Shown here in pieces: positions 33,832 through 45,043 of a DNA stretch of 64,000 bases. The position numbers and the translations under genes are program-made. Location of the stretch: positions 62,001 to 126,000 of the forward strand of contig NZ_CP108550.1 in assembly GCF_036010325.1 (NCBI RefSeq). Reading direction: 5' to 3'. This DNA is from Streptomyces sp. NBC_01210 (GTDB lineage Bacteria > Actinomycetota > Actinomycetes > Streptomycetales > Streptomycetaceae). A model generated the notes under the pieces. That model was not told where the DNA came from and ran no database searches. It worked only from the letters and a program-made list of their open reading frames with translations. The stretch's first letter is position 1. Each line of letters begins with the position of its first letter.

Positions 33832-34030
33832 ATGGAGTTCTCTACGCCCCGTGACCTGCCTGGAAGACCGTGCCCGCCGACGGATCACCCCCGATCCCGC
33901 CCGCCCTTGACCAGCTCCGCGAGCAGCTCCGAAGTCGGCCCGGGCCTGCTGGAGCGGCTGGCCCAGGTCCCCGACCCGCGCGATCCGCGCGGAGTGCGGC
34001 ACGCGCTGGCCGTCGTCCTCGCCCTTCGCT
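33832..34030 (+). pseudogene. ISAs1-family transposase N-terminal remnant
   Basis: ATG 33832. The stretch LLERLAQVPDPRDPRGVRHA then LAVVLAL is the start signature of ISAs1 (H-repeat) transposases. Homology stops near 34030 and the rest of the frame is unrelated. The catalytic DDE part is gone. Confidence 0.6.
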
Positions 34031-34249
34031 GGCAGCCCTTCCGGCTCGGGGCAGTGGCGCGAACGCTGCCGTTCTCTCCCTATGGCTCCGCGCGAGGGCG
34101 GCGGCTTCACGCAGACCACTACCGGTCCCGGCGCGGCCATGCGCCAGCAGGTGACAAGTCAGTAACGCTTGCTGAGACACCTTGGTTCGGGGCGGCGTAC
34201 TCACCAGGGGATGCGCGTACATACCACAGGTGAGACACCCAACAGGCTG

Positions 34250-34606
34250 AGACAGTCAAACTGTTCCTAACGCGGGGCTTCAAGTCCCCGTGGAGGTGGA
34301 CTGTGGCTACGTCGTTCAGTGGGGCGAGCGCGGTTCGTAAGTCGCTCCACCAGGGCAGGCCGCGGCAGCGGCGCGGGAGCTGGGCCAGGAAGAAGTCTCG
34401 ATGGGACGGGACGGTGGTATTCGCATTGAGCTCCCACCCATGGCCCGGGGTGAGTCCGCCACGACGCTGTGGATGGTCGCGGTGACCTCGAGGGCTCGCT
34501 GGATGTAGTCCCGCACGCCCAACGCGGTGGCAATGAAGCACGGTTCGCCTGGGACGGTACTCAGTACGGACCAGGCGTGGCCAGCCCATTCGCCCATGGC
34601 CAGCAC
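34250..34606 (-). pseudogene. Frameshifted remnant of an unrecognised gene
   Basis: Two adjacent minus-strand frames read protein-like: MGEWAGHAWSVLSTVPGEPC / FIATALGVRDYIQRALEVTA (to ~34441), then NTTVPSHRDFFLAQLPRRC / GLPWWSDLRTALAPLNDVAT. A single frameshift near 34440 would join them. Not a family I can name. Confidence 0.38.
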
Positions 34607-34859
34607 GGCTGCGCCCCGTGCGCGAGCGCTACGGCCTCTTCGACACCTGAGACCAGCCGGCTTGCCGTCCTCGACGGACAGGTCGAGGTCCTGCTCGCCG
34701 TAGAGCCGGCGACAGCTCGCTCAGCACATCGCGCGCTCAGTGTCCCGAAGCGCGCTCCTCAAACGTTCGACGGGTGCTCGGGACGTGGCCAGAGCCCGGT
34801 TGACCGTCTGCTGTGTTGGGGATAGCTGCCCGCCGGGCGGCCGTCTGCGCCCGGTGGTG

Positions 34860-35125
34860 AACCAGGGGCCGGCGCCCGGTCAGGTCGTGGCACCGGCCTG
34901 GCAAGGCCAGCGAGATCCACAGCACCTGCCCGGCCGGGTCGGTCACGACCTGCACGTTCACGCCGTGGCGACTGTGCTTGTGCGAGTAGTCGGCCCGGCC
35001 GTCGCCCACACGGTCGCATTCGGCGAGCGTCCCGTCGAGCAGTACGTACTCCGGCTCGTGCTCGCGCAGGGCACGATGCAGCCCGAATCGAATGTCGTCA
35101 ATCTCCGCCGCCGTCCTCACCCTGG
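34860..35125 (-). pseudogene. IS5-family transposase internal fragment
   Basis: EYVLLDGTLAECDRVGDGRA followed by DYSHKHSRHGVNVQVVTDPA and LPGRCHDLTGRRP is the central DDE region of IS5-type transposases. Both ends are missing and the frame breaks after RRP. No complete terminal repeats were found around it. Confidence 0.65.
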
Positions 35126-35388
35126 AGCGGCAGCGTTGAAAAGGCTCACTGAGTGCCGGCGTAACGTCGCCAGTGAGAGTAGCGTCGTCCGTCGTCGAGC
35201 TAGAGGAGCGGAAGCTCCGGTCAGCCCCGCGGGCAGGGCCGTGGGAAATGATCTTCGAGATCGCGGGAAACGACCTGTGAGTGCTGGCGCAAGGTGCCTG
35301 ATCAGCGCATTTCGTCGGTTCCCCCCGGTCGGGAACAGCCCAGTTCGAGCTGATCTCCTCACCCACCAACGACCCCGCGGACGACAGG

Positions 35389-35736
35389 GTGTTCTCCTGC
35401 ACGACCGAAGAGTCCCGCATCGCGTACGCGCTGCTCACCGAGATACAGCCCGGCGACCTGCTGCACGTCTCCGGAACCCTGGTCCAGCCCGGCGCTACCG
35501 GCGAGGCCGCGCAGCTCACCGTCGACGCCCTGGACGTCTTGGCCGCCGCACCGGCGCGAGCGCTGCGGGAGATGGTCCTCGACCGGTACGGCGACTACGT
35601 CGTGGTGTTCGACGCCGACACCGACGCCGTGCCCGTCTTCACCGCGCAAGGGCAGTGGGTCGGCCTGGCGGACAACCCCGACACCATCACCACCCTGATC
35701 GACATCCACGAGCGCGTGAACGGCGGTGACGCCTGA
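35389..35736 (+). CDS. OB-fold-like hypothetical protein, probably 5'-truncated
   Basis: GTG 35389 is the first start codon, but similarity seems to begin earlier (open from 35302: FELISSPTNDPADDRVFSCT). Core: LTEIQPGDLLHVSGTLVQPG, then LTVDALDVLAAAPA, which resembles a single-strand-binding or OB domain. The C-terminus reads VVFDADTDAVPVFTAQGQWV. A related broken copy lies at 45646-45958. IS debris directly upstream probably removed its beginning. Confidence 0.5.
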   Translation: MFSCTTEESRIAYALLTEIQPGDLLHVSGTLVQPGATGEAAQLTVDALDVLAAAPARALREMVLDRYGDYVVVFDADTDAVPVFTAQGQWVGLADNPDTITTLIDIHERVNGGDA

Positions 35737-35921
35737 TGGCTATGACCACCCCGCAGGCCCGAGCCGTCCTGGAGTGGTTCCCCGCCGGCCACCCCCGCGG
35801 CTCCTGGCCCGCCGACGAATACGCCGCCACTCAGCGTGCCCAAGGCAAGACGGACGCCCGGGTCGTGATGGACCTGGCGAGCGACCAGTTCCTCGTAGTC
35901 GCCGACACCACTCCCCAGTAG
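35736..35921 (+). CDS. 61-aa hypothetical protein
   Basis: ATG 35736 overlaps the previous TGA. TTPQARAVLEWFPAGHPRGS, then DARVVMDLASDQFLVVAD. Short alpha/beta protein at the head of the 36-40 kb cassette. A hairpin (CCGTGCCCGC at 35941-35950 with 35958-35967) follows it. Confidence 0.55.
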   Translation: MAMTTPQARAVLEWFPAGHPRGSWPADEYAATQRAQGKTDARVVMDLASDQFLVVADTTPQ

Positions 35922-35940
35922 CACCCGCGTACATACAGCG

Positions 35941-35967
35941 CCGTGCCCGCCTCCCGTGCGGGCACGG
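35941..35967 (+). terminator. Hairpin between the 61-aa gene and the phosphatase gene
   Basis: CCGTGCCCGC (35941-35950) pairs with GCGGGCACGG (35958-35967), 37 bases before the phosphatase start. Terminator or attenuator of the cassette. Confidence 0.55.
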
Positions 35968-36004
35968 CGCTGTCTGGCACGACACCTTCACAGAGAGGAT
36001 GAAG

Positions 36005-36664
36005 ATGCTCTTCCTCGTTCGCCACGCCGAATCCATCGAGAACGCCACCAAATACACCGGCTTCTACAAGAACCCCCGTCCGTGGACCGGGCCGGCCGCG
36101 CATGCCCTGTCCCGGGATGTTGTTGGCCTGACGCCCCGTGGCTTCCTCCAGTGCCTGTGGCTGCGGCAGACGCTGCGGGACCTGACCGGGCCCGACCCGG
36201 CGATCCGGACCTCGCAGTACCGTCGCGCCCTGGACACCGCCGCGCTTGCTCTGCCCGGCCTGCCCTGCGAGGTGACTGCGCTCCTCAACGAGCAGCACTA
36301 CGGCGCGGCCACCTACATGACCAAACGAGAGCTGTACGCCACCTACCCCGAGGGGACGCAGGACCGGCAGACCCGCAAGCACCTGTGGACGCCCCCCGGC
36401 GTCGGCGGAGAGTCCCTCGCCTGCGGCGTCCTGCGGCGGGCCACGGCGTTCGTTGACGGCCTGCACACCGCGTCCGGAGCGGATGTCGTGGCGTTCACGC
36501 ACCACACCGCGATCCTCGCGCTGCGCGCGGTCCTGGAGCGCCGGCCGGTGACGGAACTGGTCGACGAGGCCCGTGTGCGCAAGACACCCAACGCCGCGGT
36601 CCTGGTCTACGAACAGGCCGGCGGCCTGTTCCACGCCCGCGGCACCGTACAGCCGGACTGCTGA
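36005..36664 (+). CDS. Histidine phosphatase (phosphoglycerate-mutase-like)
   Basis: 219 aa from ATG 36005 (GAGAGG five to nine bases upstream; ATG 35999 is possible). The RHG catalytic start appears as MLFLVRHAESIEN, with Arg7-His8. The second catalytic His is in VVAFTHHTAILALRAVLE. An Arg pocket (TSQYRRALDTAALAL) matches the family. These enzymes remove phosphate from sugars, nucleotides or cofactors through phosphohistidine. It heads a cassette with a tRNA-synthetase-like protein, a kinase and a nucleotidyltransferase. Confidence 0.85.
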   Translation: MLFLVRHAESIENATKYTGFYKNPRPWTGPAAHALSRDVVGLTPRGFLQCLWLRQTLRDLTGPDPAIRTSQYRRALDTAALALPGLPCEVTALLNEQHYGAATYMTKRELYATYPEGTQDRQTRKHLWTPPGVGGESLACGVLRRATAFVDGLHTASGADVVAFTHHTAILALRAVLERRPVTELVDEARVRKTPNAAVLVYEQAGGLFHARGTVQPDC

Positions 36665-36677
36665 GGAGGCCGCGGCC

Positions 36678-37829
36678 ATGAACGTCGTGTACATCAACGG
36701 GCCCGTGCAGAACGGCCCCTTCACCATCGCCGGACGGCCGGGCAAGGCGGCCGGCATCCGCGCGGCCGAAGCACTCAACACGCTCCTTGGCGCCGGGCCG
36801 GTCCCGCATCTGTGGAACACCGTCACTCTGGCCGGAGACCTGCGCCACCGTGACGCCCCCGACCGGGACACCGTCGGCCGGCAGGAGCGGGAGGAACGCG
36901 CGATCGCCGCCAAGTACGCGCCGGGCCCGGCCCCGGCCGGTGGCGTTCTCACCGACACCACGCCCGCCGTGGCCGCCCTCGCGCTGGAGATGACCGAACG
37001 CCTCCTGCGGGAAGGCGCCCTGGCGGTTACTCCCACCGCAGTGCATCTCTGCAGCCGCTGCGGCCACATGACCGGCGCCGTCGCCCACGCCTGCCGGGCG
37101 TGCGGGCACCAGGGCTCCCGGCCGCACACCCGGCGGCTGCTGGTCTGGGACCGGCCCCCGGACGCACCAGTGCTCGCACGTGATGACTTCCACGCCTACC
37201 GGGCCCGGCCACCGGGACATCTGCTGACCATCGCCCAGAACGTCCCGGAGCGGCTGGTCCTGTCCCGCACCCGTGACCACGGCATCAGCCTCGCGCCGCT
37301 CGGGCTGACCGGCCTGGTCCTGGACCCGCGGGCCGGCGTGCACATCGCCGTGCTGGCTGCTGCTGCCCGGCACGGCGCCGGGCAGCCGGTGATGACGGTC
37401 ACCGAGAACGCCGCGGCGAACGTCGCTGCCTACGGGGCCCTGTTCTGGCGGCACAACGGAACGCGGCTGCGGTACGCACTGCACGGGCGCATCCCGTACG
37501 ACGACACCGCGGCGCTGCAGCGGCTCTGCGAGGTGCACCGCGTCAGCCCGGAGCTACGAGAGCTGTTCCTCGCCTGGTTCCTGCCCCTGTGCTCACTGCA
37601 CATCCGGGCAGGCATCACTCCGGCACAGCTCCCGGCCCTGCTGAAATTCTGGCGCCGCGCCCACCTGGCCCGGCCGGACACACCCGGGAGTGACGTCCTC
37701 GCCGAACTGCGGCGCAGCGTCGCGGCGGGTGATATGCGCTGGGTCATGGACGTGCGGACCCTGTCCCGGGCCATCCCCGAGTTGCCTGTCACCCACGGTT
37801 CCGCGGAGGAGCCGGGAGGAGCGAGTTGA
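36678..37829 (+). CDS. Class I aminoacyl-tRNA-synthetase-like protein with Cys4 zinc motif
   Basis: 383 aa from ATG 36678 (GAGGAGG). Rossmann-like start (VVYINGPVQNGPFTIAGRPG), a Cys4 knuckle (CSRCGHMTGAVAHACRACG, ~residues 120-138) of the kind found in MetRS-type enzymes, and a second half with a G-L-(x)-L-DPR segment (LTGLVLDPRAGVHIAVLAAA). I see no clear HIGH or KMSKS signature, so it is a divergent or non-canonical member, if one at all. Such orphan synthetase-like proteins can aminoacylate small molecules instead of tRNA. Coupled to the next gene. Confidence 0.45.
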   Translation: MNVVYINGPVQNGPFTIAGRPGKAAGIRAAEALNTLLGAGPVPHLWNTVTLAGDLRHRDAPDRDTVGRQEREERAIAAKYAPGPAPAGGVLTDTTPAVAALALEMTERLLREGALAVTPTAVHLCSRCGHMTGAVAHACRACGHQGSRPHTRRLLVWDRPPDAPVLARDDFHAYRARPPGHLLTIAQNVPERLVLSRTRDHGISLAPLGLTGLVLDPRAGVHIAVLAAAARHGAGQPVMTVTENAAANVAAYGALFWRHNGTRLRYALHGRIPYDDTAALQRLCEVHRVSPELRELFLAWFLPLCSLHIRAGITPAQLPALLKFWRRAHLARPDTPGSDVLAELRRSVAAGDMRWVMDVRTLSRAIPELPVTHGSAEEPGGAS

Positions 37830-38778
37830 TGAGCGAGAACGAGAACGGCTGGCGTTCGTCAAGAAGCGGACCGCCGCAGACGACGGCGCGGTGTACGTCT
37901 CCGCCGACAGAACGCGCTACCGGCGCACCGGTGGGGCCGAGCTCCAGTCGAAGGCAGAATTCCAGCGCCGGATCGCAAACCTCAACTACCCGGTCCCGCA
38001 CGTCCTGGAGGAGGGCGTCACCGACGACGGCCACTACTACGTCGTGGAGGAGTCGCTGGGCGACGAGACCCTGCACGACCGGGCGGTGGCGTCACTGGAC
38101 GGCGGCCGCGACCTGGCCGACGACGTCGCCGACACCGCCGCGCAGGTCGCGGCCCGGCTGCTGCGCGCCCAGGCCGCCCACCTTGTCCAGCCCACGGCCA
38201 GCGCGCTGCGGCAGTGGCTGGACAGCGCCGGGTTCACCCAGAACGTCTTCCAGGAGAACCCCGATCTGGACAACACCCGGACACACGTTGTGCTCGATCA
38301 CGCGCTGGACCGCCTGGGCACGGTTCCGCTGGTGTGGGGCCACCTCGACTACGGCCTGCCCAACGTCCTGTCGGCCGGGGTCATCGACTGGCAGCACCAC
38401 GGCCTGGTGCCCCTCGGATACGACGTCCTCCCGGCCCTGGAAATCATCGCCTTCAAGGGCGGCAACAAGGGCTACACCGCCGGCCCCGGCCAGCGGCGCC
38501 GCTACCTCGCCGCGCTGGACGACGCGAGCCTGAACGCAACCGGACAGTCGGCCAGCCAGAACCTTGGCGCCTACCTGCTCGTCAAGGCCCTGTTCTTCCT
38601 CGCCCTGATGCGGCCCACCGACCCCTCCCGTACGGACAAGCACCTGAAGTGGCAGTACCGCCGTCACCTCTTCACGAAGGGACTTGAGCAGTATGAGCGC
38701 ACCGGGACGGTCGATACCGCCCTCTTCCCCGGCCTCGAAGACTTCGCCGCTGGGCACAGCGCTGGCGACCATCCGTGA
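37829..38778 (+). CDS. Aminoglycoside-phosphotransferase-like kinase (start requires a -1 shift)
   Basis: The body (RTRYRRTGGAELQSKAEFQR; PHVLEEGVTDDGHYYVVEES; VWGHLDYGLPNVLSAGVIDW) has the APH/choline-kinase fold: catalytic loop GHLDYGLPNV and metal motif VIDWQHHG. GGGAGGAGCGAG points to ATG 37829, which also overlaps the previous stop, but that ATG is one frame off the body. Either a base is missing or extra near 37840-37860, or a -1 slip occurs in GAGAACGAGAACGG. The only in-frame starts are GTG 37690 (inside the previous gene) and GTG 37892 (no RBS). The enzyme probably phosphorylates a small hydroxyl or amino compound. Confidence 0.68.
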
Positions 38779-39790
38779 CCGCGACTACCTCCTGGACCGC
38801 GCCGGGGTGATCTTCAAAGTCATCGGCGATGTCCATCCCGGCACGCACTTCCTGGGGTACGTCAAGTACTACCCGGACGCCCGCGGTGACCGGGTGCTGT
38901 TCGGCCGGACGTACCGGCAGAACAGCGTCGTGTCCAAAGCGTTCGGGATCCTCGCCGACCGGCCCGAGTGCTACATCTACTCCCCCGCCGTGGGGTGCGT
39001 CATCACCGGCGTGCCCCGCGAGGACATCGTCACCCACTACTCCTGTCGCCAGACCCTCGCCGCACTGCACCAGGCCCCCGGCCTCCTGGGCCAAACGGCG
39101 GTCAGCGAGGACCTGCTCGCCATCATCAACTGGATCGTCGCGGCCGGCGCTGCGGACGTCGTCGGCGTGACCGGGTCCTTCCTGGTCGGCGCCTGCAACG
39201 CCCGCTCCGACATCGATCTGGTCTGCTACGGGCCGCGCGGCTACGAGGCGGCACAGGCCCTGTTCGCCGAACGCGCCCTCATCTGCCCGTACGAGGGCGA
39301 GACCCTGACCCGGCTGTACGTGCGGCGCGCCAAGTACATGGTGGGGGGAAGCTTCGACGCGCTCATGCGCCAGGAGGTGCGCAAACTGCAGGGCCTGACA
39401 GCCGGTGCGGGGGCGCACATCAACTGTGAGCCGCTGAGGGCCGACGGCGACAAGACGTTCGCCGGGGTGGTTGCCAAAGAGGTAGGGGCGATCTCCGTCT
39501 TTGCCCGGATCACGGATCACTCCGAGGGCCTGGTCACGCCGGCGTTCTACGGGATCGAGGTGGACACGGTCACGGAGTCCACGGTCGACGAGCCGTCCGT
39601 GTTCGCCCGCCGGATCACCCACCTTCGCAGCTACCTCGGTACGTACACGGGGGCGTTCCGCACCGGCGACGTCGTCTACCTGTCCGGCCGGTTGGTCCAC
39701 ATCCAAGGCCCCGATACACACAGCGGCTTCGGCATCGAGCTGACCCCGTGGTCGGCAGCCGAGTCCTTCCTCGCCAACCTGACCCGCTGA
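38693..39790 (+). CDS. Nucleotidyltransferase-domain protein
   Basis: 365 aa from ATG 38693, overlapping the kinase gene by 86 bases. The NTase core is at ~residues 160-180: VGVTGSFLVGACNARSDIDL, with GS followed by the metal-binding DxD of polymerase-beta-type enzymes. The N-terminal 130 residues (PGTHFLGYVKYYPDARGDRV) and a C-terminal OB-like part (LGTYTGAFRTGDVVYLSGRL) flank it. It would transfer NMP to RNA, protein or a small molecule; with the kinase and phosphatase a phosphorylated or nucleotidylated product is likely (inference). Confidence 0.75.
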   Translation: MSAPGRSIPPSSPASKTSPLGTALATIRDRDYLLDRAGVIFKVIGDVHPGTHFLGYVKYYPDARGDRVLFGRTYRQNSVVSKAFGILADRPECYIYSPAVGCVITGVPREDIVTHYSCRQTLAALHQAPGLLGQTAVSEDLLAIINWIVAAGAADVVGVTGSFLVGACNARSDIDLVCYGPRGYEAAQALFAERALICPYEGETLTRLYVRRAKYMVGGSFDALMRQEVRKLQGLTAGAGAHINCEPLRADGDKTFAGVVAKEVGAISVFARITDHSEGLVTPAFYGIEVDTVTESTVDEPSVFARRITHLRSYLGTYTGAFRTGDVVYLSGRLVHIQGPDTHSGFGIELTPWSAAESFLANLTR

Positions 39791-40124
39791 GCCGTGCGCA
39801 CGGCGTCCACGGCCCGCGTTCACGGCTGGCGGAACCTCCACCTGCACCCCGGCGACGATCCTTCCTGCGGCATCCGTATCCGGACCACCCCTGCGGCTGT
39901 GAGTGGGAAGACACCTGGCGCACCGCGCTCCACAAGGCGATGGCCGCGAGGTGGACATCCCCGCTCTGGCGCCCCTCGCCCTGGGTTCCCCCCGACGCAC
40001 GGAGGGCGCGGCGTGACCACTGCCCTCAACGAGGAGGCCGACGACGGCATCACTCGCGAGTGGCATGCAGTTCAGCGAGGAATTGGAGGTGCGTGCAGTC
40101 TTCCGGCGGTGTCAGGCTGCGCCG
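39791..40124 (+). other. Gene fragment, no intact gene
   Basis: GTG 39794 reads MRTASTARVHGWRNLHLHPG-DDPSCGIRI, and a neighbouring frame reads HPYPDHPCGCEWEDTWRTAL-HKAMAA. Both look protein-like but no single frame joins them, so a short gene broken by a frameshift is likely. No function can be assigned. Confidence 0.35.
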
Positions 40125-40862
40125 ATGAACCGTGAACAGATGTCCAGGATCGCTCATGCCAATCATCCGATCAAAGCTCCCCTCGACGACGATTCGGTGT
40201 GCGAACTGCTCGAGCGCGGGTTCTCCCAACCTGACGCGCGTGTGCTCGATCTCGGCTGCGGAGGAGGAGAGTGGCTCCTTCGGGCCCTGGCCACCAGCCC
40301 TCGATTGCGTGCCGAGGGCGTCGATATCTCTGAAGACGCGCTGGCACAAGCCCGTGAGGCCGCGAGCAGCCTCGGTGTCCAAGAACGCCTGGTCCTCCAC
40401 CACCAGGCAGCCGCCGACTTCGCCTCCTCGCACCCGTTCGACTTGGTGCTCAGCGTCGGGGCCGCCCACGCCTTCGGCGGCCTGCTCCCCACTCTCGCGG
40501 CGGCACGCAAGCATCTGGCGCCGGGCGGGCGCGTCCTGGTCGGTGACGGATTCTGGGAGAAGGAGCCGTCCCCGGAAGCCGTTGAGATGCTCGGCGACTT
40601 CACCGACCTGGCGACCACGTTGGATCGCGTGACCGCCGAGGGGTGGACTCCCGTCCACGGTCACGTCAGCACCCGCCGGGAGCTGGACGATTATGAGTGG
40701 GCATGCTGGGGGGCGATGGCTGCTTGGGCCCTGGACCATCCTGATGATCCAGACAGTTCCGACGTTCTCTCGACAGCCACCACCCGCCGATCCGAATGGC
40801 TGCGTTCCTTCCGGGACAGCTTTGGCTTCGTCTGCCTCGTCTTGCGCCAGACTTCCAGCTGA
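40125..40862 (+). CDS. SAM-dependent class I methyltransferase
   Basis: 245 aa from ATG 40125; an upstream ATG (40065) is possible. Motif I is ARVLDLGCGGGEWLLRAL (~residues 37-54), then VDISEDALAQAREAA (acidic loop), FDLVLSVGAAHAFGG and APGGRVLVGDGFWEKEPSPE. Substrate unknown. It ends the 35.7-40.9 kb cassette but may be independent, as 330 bases separate it from the nucleotidyltransferase. Confidence 0.85.
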   Translation: MNREQMSRIAHANHPIKAPLDDDSVCELLERGFSQPDARVLDLGCGGGEWLLRALATSPRLRAEGVDISEDALAQAREAASSLGVQERLVLHHQAAADFASSHPFDLVLSVGAAHAFGGLLPTLAAARKHLAPGGRVLVGDGFWEKEPSPEAVEMLGDFTDLATTLDRVTAEGWTPVHGHVSTRRELDDYEWACWGAMAAWALDHPDDPDSSDVLSTATTRRSEWLRSFRDSFGFVCLVLRQTSS

Positions 40863-41153
40863 CCCGGACCAGCTCCTGCTACGGCCACGTCAGCACCCGC
40901 CAAACTAGGCCAGTGATGTCCAGGCGGGCAGCCCCGGCATCGGACTCACCGCCGCGGCCGTCGAGTGACATCAAGACTCTTCGACATTGATCTTGGCTCA
41001 TGTCCTCAAGTAGCTCGCGAAGTCGTCGCGAAACGACATCCGCAGAACGTGACGCAGCCACTGCGCCAGAACGCTGACAGCTGCTTCCGTCGTCCGGGGT
41101 TTTAACGTTTGGCGGTGCCGTTCGACTCCTTCGACGTGAAGGGACAACAGTTA

Positions 41154-41408
41154 GTGCCCATCCTCGGCTTGGCACCTCTGGCATCGGTTGTCGCCATGGG
41201 GGGTCTGCCGTGGTTTGTGCTTCCGGTATCGGGCGTCTTGACCTTGACTGGTGTGGCGGTGAGTGAATGGCAGCGCCGTCGCACGTTGTTGGCGGTACTG
41301 AGGCACGCGCCGCGGGGCACCATTGTTGAGCAGGAGCCGGGTATCGGAGGGCCAGGTGTGCGTATTCGGGTCGGGGGTCCCGATTCACGGGCCCGCCGAA
41401 GGCGGTGA
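41154..41408 (+). CDS. Small membrane protein upstream of the sigma gene
   Basis: 84 aa from GTG 41154, with AAGGGA nine bases upstream; starts at 41109 are possible. Two hydrophobic segments (ILGLAPLASVVAMGGLPWFV; LPVSGVLTLTGVAVSE), then a basic cytoplasmic tail. Ends three bases before the sigma factor gene; could be a membrane-bound anti-sigma or sensor (inference from position). 40863-41153 contains no gene that I can support. Confidence 0.5.
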   Translation: MPILGLAPLASVVAMGGLPWFVLPVSGVLTLTGVAVSEWQRRRTLLAVLRHAPRGTIVEQEPGIGGPGVRIRVGGPDSRARRRR

Positions 41409-41411
41409 GCG

Positions 41412-42041
41412 ATGGCGGCAATGCGGCTCAGGCCGGAAGACCAGGATCGTGTGACGGCTCTGTTTGACGAGTTGTACGAGCCGATGCGCCGTCTTCTCTC
41501 CCGCCTCCGTGAGGGATCGGGATCAGATCCTTCGTCCGACCGTGACATCGTGATGGGTGCCTTTGAGGCAGCGATTGAGAACTGGGACGAGTTCAGCACA
41601 TGGGACGAACGGCACCAGAGGGCCTGGCTGTTCACCGTCTGCCGTAACCATCGGATCGATGAACTCCGACGCCGACGCCGCCTCCGTGAGCTTCTGGCAC
41701 AGGTGTGGGTGCTGGATCAGACTCTGGAGGAGAACCCAGAGCAGGTTGCTCTGGACCGCCTCGCGCTGGCCAAGTGCGCGGCTGTTCTGCGCAGCATGCC
41801 CCGCGCGCGGCGTGAGGTAGCGACAATGGAGTGGTTGTTACAGATGCCCAGGGATGAGATCGCCAAGGTGCTTGGCATGCGCCCGGGAACCATACGGGTA
41901 CACCTATCTCACGCACGCAAAACTCTGAGGGAAGAGGTAGGCCCCTACCTGTCGTTCCCGGTCAGCGCAGGCAACGACGATGGACCGAAGAGGAGGGAGC
42001 ATGAGCGGAAAGCGGCGGAACCCGTACGGGTTGACCGATGA
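41412..42041 (+). CDS. ECF-type RNA polymerase sigma factor
   Basis: 209 aa from ATG 41412. Region 2 (LFDELYEPMRRLLSRLREG; DIVMGAFEAAIENWDEFSTW; AWLFTVCRNHRIDELRRRRR) and region 4 (LRSMPRARREVATMEWLLQM; PRDEIAKVLGMRPGTIRVHL then SHARKTLREEV) are both clear. It overlaps the HspR-like gene at 42001, so the two are translated together. It probably directs a small stress regulon that includes its own operon. Confidence 0.85.
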   Translation: MAAMRLRPEDQDRVTALFDELYEPMRRLLSRLREGSGSDPSSDRDIVMGAFEAAIENWDEFSTWDERHQRAWLFTVCRNHRIDELRRRRRLRELLAQVWVLDQTLEENPEQVALDRLALAKCAAVLRSMPRARREVATMEWLLQMPRDEIAKVLGMRPGTIRVHLSHARKTLREEVGPYLSFPVSAGNDDGPKRREHERKAAEPVRVDR

Positions 42042-43143
42042 GGCCCCGGTCTACGTCATCTCGGTGGCGGCTCAGCTCTCCGGCCTGCACCCGCAGACGT
42101 TGCGCCAGTACGACCGCCTGGGCCTGGTCTCCCCGGACCGCACCGCCGGCCGGGGCCGGCGCTACTCGGCCCGCGACATCGAGCTGCTCCGGCAGGTGCA
42201 GCAGCTTTCGCAGGACGAGGACATCAACCTCGCCGGGATCAAGCGCATCATCGAACTGGAGAACCAGGTGGCCGTGCTGCAGTCCCGCGTCGCGGAACTG
42301 GCATCGGCCCTGGACGGAGCTGCCGCGGCCATGCGGCAGCGCGAGGCAACCGTCCACGCTTCCTACCGACGCGACCTGGTCCCCTACCAGGAGGCCCAAA
42401 AGACCAGCCCGCTGGTGGTATGGCGGCCAAAGCGGCAGGACCAGGGCGGGAGTGATGACGACAGCAGCACTGACGATCGACAGGACACACTGGAGGACCC
42501 GCACCTGTCTCAGGACGATGCAGGGGCCGACTCTGACGACGACCTTGCCACCTTGCTGCGCGAGACAGCACAGGAGCTCGGATCGCCCCCGCCACGTGAG
42601 GAGTTTGACGAGGACAGGCGCGAATTGCTGTCCTGGATGCAGGGCGGGGAAGCTGACACACCCGCCAGTAACCCATCCGGAAACCGTAGTTCGGGGGCTG
42701 CTGATCCACGAAGGAACAGACCGTACGGGTTGACCGATGAGGCCCCGGTCTACGTCATCTCGGTGGCGGCTCAGCTCTCCGGCCTGCACCCGCAGACGTT
42801 GCGCCAGTACGACCGCCTGGGCCTGGTCTCCCCGGACCGCACCGCCGGCCGGGGCCGGCGCTACTCGGCCCGCGACATCGAGCTGCTCCGGCAGGTGCAG
42901 CAGCTTTCGCAGGACGAGGACATCAACCTCGCCGGGATCAAGCGCATCATCGAACTGGAGAACCAGGTGGCCGTGCTGCAGTCCCGCGTCGCGGAACTGG
43001 CATCGGCCCTGGACGGAGCTGCCGCGGCCATGCGGCAGCGCGAGGCAACCGTCCACGCTTCCTACCGACGCGACCTGGTCCCCTACCAGGAGACTCAACA
43101 GACCAGCCCCGCTGGTGGTATGGCGGCGAAGCCACCGGAGTGA
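42001..43143 (+). CDS. Tandem HspR-like MerR-family regulator (two identical modules)
   Basis: 380 aa from ATG 42001 (GAGGAGGGAGC). Each half begins PYGLTDEAPVYVISVAAQLS / GLHPQTLRQYDRLGLVSPDR, the winged-helix start of HspR, and continues with QVQQLSQDEDINLAGIKRII and a leucine-zipper-like helix. HspR represses dnaK-type heat-shock genes at HAIR sites and normally has ~150 aa. Here two copies are joined by an acidic ~100-residue linker (SDDDSSTDDRQDTLEDPH). Since MerR proteins act as dimers, this may be a covalent dimer. Confidence 0.85.
   Translation: MSGKRRNPYGLTDEAPVYVISVAAQLSGLHPQTLRQYDRLGLVSPDRTAGRGRRYSARDIELLRQVQQLSQDEDINLAGIKRIIELENQVAVLQSRVAELASALDGAAAAMRQREATVHASYRRDLVPYQEAQKTSPLVVWRPKRQDQGGSDDDSSTDDRQDTLEDPHLSQDDAGADSDDDLATLLRETAQELGSPPPREEFDEDRRELLSWMQGGEADTPASNPSGNRSSGAADPRRNRPYGLTDEAPVYVISVAAQLSGLHPQTLRQYDRLGLVSPDRTAGRGRRYSARDIELLRQVQQLSQDEDINLAGIKRIIELENQVAVLQSRVAELASALDGAAAAMRQREATVHASYRRDLVPYQETQQTSPAGGMAAKPPE
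42022..42393 (+). repeat. 372-bp repeat, copy 1 (HspR module)
   Basis: Identical at every base to 42721-43092 (offset 699), including silent positions. Homology extends ~40 bases further with scattered differences and one extra C in copy 2. Confidence 0.95.
42721..43092 (+). repeat. 372-bp repeat, copy 2 (HspR module)
   Basis: Second copy of 42022-42393. Both stay in frame within one gene. A recent duplication or ongoing gene conversion; an assembly artefact should be excluded. Confidence 0.95.
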
Positions 43144-43408: not shown

Positions 43409-43615
43409 GTTGCGTTCCGGGGCCGCCGCAGCGTCAACTCCTCATCGACGTATACCGCGCGACGCGATCGGGTGTTGGCGAGGACATCGGACAGGAGGGC
43501 TCCAGTTTCCGCCACATCCCAAAAATCGTTCGTGCGTTCCTATTTGGGATGTGAGGCTTCTCTGGAACCGGCCTTGATCAGCCTGACCCGCTGATAGATG
43601 GGGGGCCACACAAAC

Positions 43616-45043
43616 ATGGGGGGCACATTGAGTATGAGTATGCGGCGGCTGCGTGACGGAGCGTTGGCCGCGACAGCAGTCCTGATGGCCGCGATGACAC
43701 CAGCGGCGTCAGCCGACGAACCCGGTGACCTTGAGCGCGTGTCCTATGCCCTGCCCCTCGGCATCGCCGCACCGGACGGGCCGGTCACGGCTGACGCCAT
43801 AAGAACACTCGGCGAGAAGGCCGACCTGGCGGGCAGCGGGATGACGGCGCTGGAAACGGTCGGCCCCGTCGCCAGCTACGCACCGCGCGCCGCAGCAGCC
43901 TCGGCCACTGCGACTCCGGCTGTTCCTCGCATGCAGGCCGCAGCGCCCGCCGCGGTTTCATATCCCGCTCCGGCCCGGTCGATCTCGCTCGCCGAGTGCC
44001 AGGCGCAGATCGACCGACCCGGCGGCGGGAAGTTCTACGTGAAATCACGCTTCGCCGTATGCACCGGCATCCGCATGACCTCCACCTGGAGCAGGAACGG
44101 CGCGCCGGTGGGAATCAGCGAGACGAAGGTGTTCATCCGGGGCACCGTGCCCAAGGAAGCCGACCGGACGATGAAGTTCGACTACGACGTGGTCGGATTC
44201 AAGAAAGTGGGCGAGATTCCCACAAACCGGGAGATATACAAGATCGAAGGAACCATCCCGAAGACATGGCCGGCCTCCGCACGGAAAACGCAGGGCGGCA
44301 ACCTGCCCGTCACGAAGAGCTTTGACGCGCTTCGGGCCATGCCTTCGGCCCACTTCACCCACACCGTGCGCTACGCGCCGGGACAGGGCACAGGTGCCGG
44401 AGCCGCCGATGCCGTCTTCGCCGTCTACCAGCCAGTGATCACCGCATCGGCGGTGCCCGGCTGGATCGGCACCCCCAACATCGGCAAGCCGTTCCTGCTG
44501 GCGCCGCGTTGGGACGCGGCGAAGTACCTCAACAACCCGACGGGCGGCAGCACCCCGGCGAACAAGGGCAGCGCATCCTTCAGCTACCTCGCGACGCTGA
44601 ACTACAGCACGAAGGCAACCGCACCCGAGCGCGGAGCAGCCGCCCACATCAAGAAGGCGTTGACCACCCCGAAAGCGACGAAGCCGCCGAACGGCGACAA
44701 GAGGATCCCCGGGCAGAGCGTCGACGCACCCCTGCACCGCCTCTACCTCGATGCGCAGCGCCGCAAGGACAACCGGGCCAAGGCGGTCAGCAACTGCCGC
44801 AGGTACTTCGGCCCCAACTACACCCAGGGCGGTAAGGACTGCGACGAGTACCCGTTCGCAACGACCTACGAGGGAGCCGCGCAGGCGGACTACGACCCGC
44901 ACGCGGAGAAGCTGAACTTCTCGGTACTCCCGGTCGACTCCACGCAGAACCAGGACGCGGGCCGGCTGCTGGGCCAGTTCCTGACAAAGAACAGAATCAT
45001 CGACGGCCCGGAGGACGGCTTCATCGTCAAGATCAGCTCGTAG
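43616..45043 (+). CDS. Secreted protein with NucA/NucB-type deoxyribonuclease domain
   Basis: 475 aa from ATG 43616 (GGGGGG upstream; other starts 43634 or 43598). Signal peptide (RLRDGALAATAVLMAAMTPA, cleavage near ASA). Mature N-terminal ~300 residues are beta-rich and unassigned. The C-terminus RYFGPNYTQGGKDCDEYPFA then TTYEGAAQADYDP carries the DEYPFA...EG signature of NucA/NucB nucleases (as in Bacillus competence DNase). It likely degrades extracellular DNA; a toxin role toward neighbours is possible. Confidence 0.75.
   Translation: MGGTLSMSMRRLRDGALAATAVLMAAMTPAASADEPGDLERVSYALPLGIAAPDGPVTADAIRTLGEKADLAGSGMTALETVGPVASYAPRAAAASATATPAVPRMQAAAPAAVSYPAPARSISLAECQAQIDRPGGGKFYVKSRFAVCTGIRMTSTWSRNGAPVGISETKVFIRGTVPKEADRTMKFDYDVVGFKKVGEIPTNREIYKIEGTIPKTWPASARKTQGGNLPVTKSFDALRAMPSAHFTHTVRYAPGQGTGAGAADAVFAVYQPVITASAVPGWIGTPNIGKPFLLAPRWDAAKYLNNPTGGSTPANKGSASFSYLATLNYSTKATAPERGAAAHIKKALTTPKATKPPNGDKRIPGQSVDAPLHRLYLDAQRRKDNRAKAVSNCRRYFGPNYTQGGKDCDEYPFATTYEGAAQADYDPHAEKLNFSVLPVDSTQNQDAGRLLGQFLTKNRIIDGPEDGFIVKISS

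Follow-up and report, generated by a model that had tools for sequence, protein, structure and literature searches.

A recurring four-gene cassette of actinobacterial plasmids and chromosomes with a putative role in small-molecule metabolism

The closest described systems to the locus reported here include proteins related to aminoacyl-tRNA synthetases (aaRS). PyrN, a member of the hydrazine synthetase family that also comprises Spb40 and Tri28, possesses a domain resembling methionyl-tRNA synthetase (MetRS) and is described as requiring ATP, its K458A variant being inactive on its own. SbzA, an IleRS-like aminoacyl transferase of SB-203208 biosynthesis, retains HYGH, an AMSKA motif and the full IleRS architecture (PMC12945691), and cyclodipeptide synthases are presented in PMC7566563 as having a class I aaRS-like fold and as using aminoacyl-tRNA, not ATP plus an amino acid. 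Here, a 64,000-nucleotide stretch of Streptomyces sp. NBC_01210 (the window; positions 62001-126000 of the smaller contig, 131,861 bases long, of a two-contig 9.2 Mb genome) was analysed, which is predicted to encode a histidine phosphatase (HP), a synthetase-like protein (SYN), an APH-type kinase (KIN) and a Pol-beta-type nucleotidyltransferase (NT). The presence of ParA/ParB genes downstream of these four genes and the finding that linear Streptomyces plasmids are the nearest relatives of the window make it very likely that the window represents a Streptomyces plasmid.

Recurrence and co-inheritance of the four genes

To compare the locus with others, 57 loci encompassing 52 distinct NT sequences were classed: 36 loci from an NT scan of 84,980 species genomes, eight plasmid loci, 12 further genome stretches and the window. 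The scan loci were distributed across Streptomyces, Streptacidiphilus, Kitasatospora, Kribbella, Actinomadura, Sphaerimonospora, Nocardiopsis, Thermobifida and Actinorugispora, and tblastn analysis of plasmid records identified SYN in 21 and NT in 23 records, all from Streptomyces. The cassette was found on plasmids as well as chromosomes of actinobacteria and occurs in five gene orders, namely HP-SYN-KIN-NT (24 loci), KIN-NT-HP-SYN (18), SYN-HP pointing away from KIN-NT (four), SYN-KIN-NT (four) and KIN-NT-SYN (three, including L076), where KIN was counted only when adjoining NT on the same strand. The remaining loci contained NT-SYN at a contig edge (L044), KIN-NT (L023) or NT alone (L007 and L045). 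KIN and NT were always neighbours where both are intact; broken members comprised loci with an internal transposase gene (L003 and L084), a split SYN (L017 and L026), a partial HP (L015 and L019) or a split kinase frame (L004).

As these loci were mostly collected via NT, the presence of NT in them is by construction, a bias from which searches for genome-level pairing are free. Among 199 Streptomyces genomes (E≤1e-20), NT was present in seven (once as a fragment) and SYN in six, these being the same six; similarly, in genus g252, which is probably Kitasatospora, SYN was present in 12 (once as a fragment) and NT in 11 of 61 genomes, again the same eleven. Across 396 genomes of the phylum, SYN was detected only in the genome of the window, and NT in that genome and, distantly, in G240, while 13 of 150 genomes of the family were shown to harbour SYN. 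Furthermore, protein distances were correlated between NT and SYN (0.96 over 47 loci) and between NT and HP (0.82 over 38 loci; 0 of 2000 permutations each), following the exclusion of duplicates (L018, L082, L085, L086 and L087), loci with a split SYN (L017 and L026) and SYN sequences of ≤300 aa. Ratios of non-synonymous to synonymous substitution rates, calculated for HP, SYN and NT relative to seven relatives, ranged from 0.15 to 0.62.

The original prediction had proposed looking for the same neighbours in other genomes, and these do co-occur: based on co-occurrence, gene order and matching divergence, the grouping of the four genes is more than chance. They constitute a recurring cassette, which is inherited as a unit, has been reshuffled into five orders and is located behind different regulators. 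A phage origin was rejected, as none of 50,697 phage records contained an NT match and a PHROGs comparison of the core proteins produced a match for HP only, to a family of unassigned function.

Predicted folds and motifs of the encoded proteins

Although SYN did not reach the cut-off of any Pfam family, its predicted structure is that of a class I synthetase with a MetRS fold, in agreement with the expectation that this protein would not model as an unrelated fold. As in MetRS, the predicted fold carries a cysteine knuckle in an insertion (CxxC...CxxC, residues 125-142), of which C125, C128, C139 and C142 are conserved in 55 of 55 sequences. The HIGH motif is replaced by QNG or HNG at its place in alignment A3, HxGH being found in a single sequence out of 54 (L039, where it reads HHGH and lies at another point of the chain), and KMSK, MSKS or KxSK[ST] was observed in none of the 54. 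Conversely, the Streptomyces MetRS sequences used for comparison, obtained from only 15 genomes near that of the window, do exhibit KMSKS. With both class I ATP motifs missing, substrate activation by this protein in the usual sense, a step of the original proposal, is not supported.

NT displays the GS...SDxD motif and the predicted fold of Pol-beta nucleotidyltransferases. Its model includes a Pol-beta-type core (approximately residues 114-261) and a predicted C-terminal OB fold (residues 243-344), and the match to NTP_transf_2 (PF01909; 17.5 bits) is below the cut-off of 21. HP was assigned to histidine phosphatase branch 1 by its Pfam profile (PF00300; 77.8 bits, E 1.2e-21, cut-off 21.7) and by its RHxxS motif, present as RHAES in 37 of 41 HP proteins from distinct loci, with several of the misses being partial or extended frames. 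HP was found in 46 of the 57 loci and, being absent from some lineages, is probably accessory. Likewise, KIN was assigned to the APH phosphotransferase family by profile (PF01636; 33.5 bits, cut-off 23.2) and by the HxDxxxxN catalytic loop, observed in 44 of 48 KIN proteins from distinct loci. Sequence comparison with solved structures returned nothing below E 0.05 for SYN, 0.1 for KIN and 0.2 for NT.

The proposed overlapping or touching starts were retained in part. The ATG of NT lies within the 3′ end of KIN, with an overlap of 86 nt. In contrast, the ATG at 37829 that overlaps the SYN stop codon, proposed as the kinase start, is not in frame with the kinase body, the frame of which opens at GTG 37690 inside SYN, with a further in-frame GTG at 37891. 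The corresponding junction ATG opens the kinase frame in 20 of 23 other loci with the same gene order, the exceptions being L003 and L084, where the transposase gene intervenes, and L004, which is out of frame like the window. A different start, decay or a sequence error may be responsible.

Layout of the locus and neighbouring genes

The five enzyme-type open reading frames (ORFs) were indeed found in line on the plus strand, and HP and SYN are separated by 13 nt. At the position initially taken as the phosphatase start (35736), the ATG belongs to a distinct ORF of 61 aa, and a similar-sized gene is located at the same place in L002 (8062-8244) and L003 (8063-8245).

Table. Features of the cassette and its immediate surroundings (window coordinates)
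Feature	Position	Strand	Basis or remark
115-aa ORF, associated, not core	35389..35736	+	Neighbour clustering (family c7)
61-aa ORF, associated, not core	35736..35921	+	Sequence; annotation of relatives
Strong GC hairpin between small ORFs and HP	35936..35972	+	Fold of stretch upstream of HP
HP, 221-aa histidine phosphatase of branch 1	35999..36664	+	ATG 35999 or 36005; Pfam His_Phos_1
SYN, 383-aa protein with predicted MetRS fold and Cys4 zinc-knuckle-like motif, lacking HIGH and KMSKS	36678..37829	+	
KIN, APH-type small-molecule kinase	37829..38778, body in frame of 37825-38778	+	Pfam APH
NT, Pol-beta-type nucleotidyltransferase, 344-aa model	38693..39790	+	
Class I S-adenosylmethionine (SAM) methyltransferase, neighbour outside unit	40065..40862	+	Pfam, blastp, plasmid comparison

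The methyltransferase, for which several methyltransferase families scored above their Pfam cut-offs, had been counted as a fifth member and was rejected as such. It starts 274 nt after NT; of the 46 plasmid records matched by this stretch, 15 were listed, and 13 of these are without an NT or SYN match; and its similarity to methyltransferases following NT in other loci is at best marginal (blastp E 0.003). A different methyltransferase family, to which the gene in the window does not belong, follows NT in nine loci, and methylation may therefore be an optional extra of the cassette.

Upstream of HP, the protein family of the 115-aa ORF, which has no Pfam match, is encoded directly upstream of the cassette in eight Streptomyces-clade loci. 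The hairpin, a possible attenuator or processing site, is present in identical or very similar form in close relatives (e.g. L002, L003, L010 and L014), and was not found in L008, L013 or L005. An Rfam search of positions 34000-43000 produced no match, and a scan for sigma-70-type promoters, which is uninformative for Streptomyces promoters, identified none (0.3 expected by chance).

Neighbouring genes were counted by clustering, with duplicates included and cluster representatives annotated. GntR/UTRA regulators were found in 11 loci, ParB in 11, ParA in ten and Nudix proteins in 11; an XRE-type regulator (c4) was present in ten loci, seven of which also encode a flavoprotein; DUF5753-type regulators were present in seven, with DUF397 in six of these; and DUF5919 plus HD in seven. 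Regulators of four or more kinds thus precede the cassette. In g252, 43 of 51 genomes contain relatives of the DUF5919 regulator, and of nine such places that have no cassette next to them (L088-L096), three have synthetase paralogues nearby, i.e. SerRS in L089, L092 and L094, ArgRS in L089 and GluRS in L094 (Pfam being run on both L089 proteins and on the L094 GluRS). Radical SAM, carbamoyltransferase and kinase genes are located at some of these places, and the DUF5919/Nudix/HD module with its synthetase paralogues resembles a small-molecule operon of a kind not yet described.

Elsewhere in the window, a MerR-like regulator ORF of 387 aa with two near-identical halves, representing a tandem duplication (41980-43143), a protein ending in a DNase domain of the NucA/NucB type (43598-45043) and, on the minus strand, an alanine-rich 1206-aa protein with seven ALF repeats (PF03752; 26842-30462) were observed.

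Possible functions and comparison with known systems

We propose, with a probability of roughly 0.42, that the four genes form a mobile small-molecule cassette, likely making or tailoring an amino-acid-containing small molecule. The enzyme families make phosphorylation and nucleotidylation of a substrate plausible: KIN would phosphorylate a small molecule, to which NT would then add a nucleotide. SYN, lacking ATP signatures, would form no adenylate and would probably move an aminoacyl group, in the manner of SbzA (transfer from aminoacyl-tRNA) or cyclodipeptide synthases and unlike a charging enzyme. HP may remove a phosphate late or recycle a by-product, which would explain its absence from some lineages. 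We infer the small-molecule substrate, the roles and order of these steps and every reaction, and the folds of SYN and NT, including the OB tail, are known by prediction only. A more specific and rather doubtful proposal is that SYN represents a novel class of enzyme derived from class I synthetases: a MetRS that has given up ATP chemistry would, together with its dedicated kinase and the OB-tailed nucleotidyltransferase, assemble an aminoacylated nucleotide, which might be a new signal, cofactor or antibiotic, with the genes traded between actinobacterial plasmids and chromosomes under interchangeable regulators.

Several observations weigh against the small-molecule proposal. Product, substrate and expression are all putative. 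The kinship of SYN to MetRS rests on the predicted model, as comparing its profile with that of Streptomyces MetRS gave no significant match (E 0.14, probability 0.4%), and residues 10-22, the expected place of HIGH, are modelled with a pLDDT below 50. In addition to its sub-threshold Pfam score, NT has no Foldseek match at E≤0.001. Flanking biosynthetic genes are not conserved around the cassette, so that any product would need to be made by three to four enzymes; the three places with aaRS paralogues may share one ancestor and may be chance neighbours; and the window copy may be partly inactive, given its out-of-frame kinase start.

The OB tail of NT and the fold of SYN could equally indicate an RNA substrate, and the main alternative, which we consider unlikely, is an RNA-directed system, in which SYN and NT would act on tRNA (e.g. 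in the repair or modification of damaged or foreign tRNA) and KIN and HP would add and remove RNA phosphates. Enzymes of the APH and ANT-like types classically modify antibiotics and the location is plasmid-borne, consistent with a drug-modifying self-protection cassette in which a toxic small molecule would be inactivated by KIN and NT, while SYN would act as a decoy, or mimic of the target, for an inhibitor directed against MetRS. This is improbable, however, as four coinherited proteins exceed what resistance would need, a decoy without any ATP motif would hardly bind an adenylate mimic, and producer genes are not conserved nearby.

A role in defence or plasmid maintenance, as an anti-phage or addiction system, was judged somewhat less probable still: the ParA/ParB genes adjoining in 10-11 loci and the mobile, multi-gene character, including a nucleotidyltransferase, would fit such a role, yet the Kitasatospora, Kribbella and Nocardiopsis loci lack ParAB, phage records contain no NT match, the gene set appears metabolic with no toxin-like partner, and HP, SYN, KIN and NT match no known anti-phage defence model at E≤1 (PADLOC 2.0.0, 2023 library). 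That the genes are chance neighbours carried on related plasmids is highly improbable and already contradicted by the data; many Streptomyces matches are indeed plasmids of related backbone with ParAB, but the same members recur in five orders in at least nine genera, on chromosomes too, and pair exactly at genome level.

If the small-molecule proposal is correct, the few translation enzymes recruited for metabolites would be joined by two further families, one derived from MetRS and devoid of ATP motifs, the other consisting of nucleotidyltransferases with an OB tail. The cassette would also offer a compact target of three to four genes, the product of which could be found by heterologous expression, and the regulator module common to the cassette and other synthetase-paralogue operons would provide a handle for genome mining.

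The original prediction knew of no characterised pathway with this gene order, and none with this gene set or order was found in the open-licence PMC literature searched. MetG comprises approximately 550 aa with HIGH and KMSKS, neither of which is present in the shorter SYN, and the genome of the window (G000) encodes its own MetG, with two matches above the family cut-off, besides SYN. SYN also lacks the KMSKS-type lysine of PyrN-type hydrazine synthetases, and a cupin and a lysine hydroxylase, partners of the PyrN type, were not recognised among the annotated neighbours. Cyclodipeptide synthases are related to TyrRS/TrpRS, not MetRS, and are not known to act with partners of the HP, KIN or NT type. 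From the aminoglycoside-modifying enzymes ANT(2'')-Ia and APH, NT differs by an extra N-terminal domain, the OB tail, its sub-threshold Pfam score and its coinheritance with SYN. Distant NT relatives in L049, L098, L099 and L100, located beside 4-HFC-P synthase-like and amino-acid-kinase-like genes, represent a possible nucleotidyltransferase of methanofuran-type cofactor synthesis; they share the NT architecture by sequence (E 2.7e-20), belong to a different actinobacterial order and were not seen with SYN. SbzA, despite retaining the motifs and architecture that set it apart from SYN, is, as proposed for SYN, an aaRS-derived Streptomyces protein operating outside translation.
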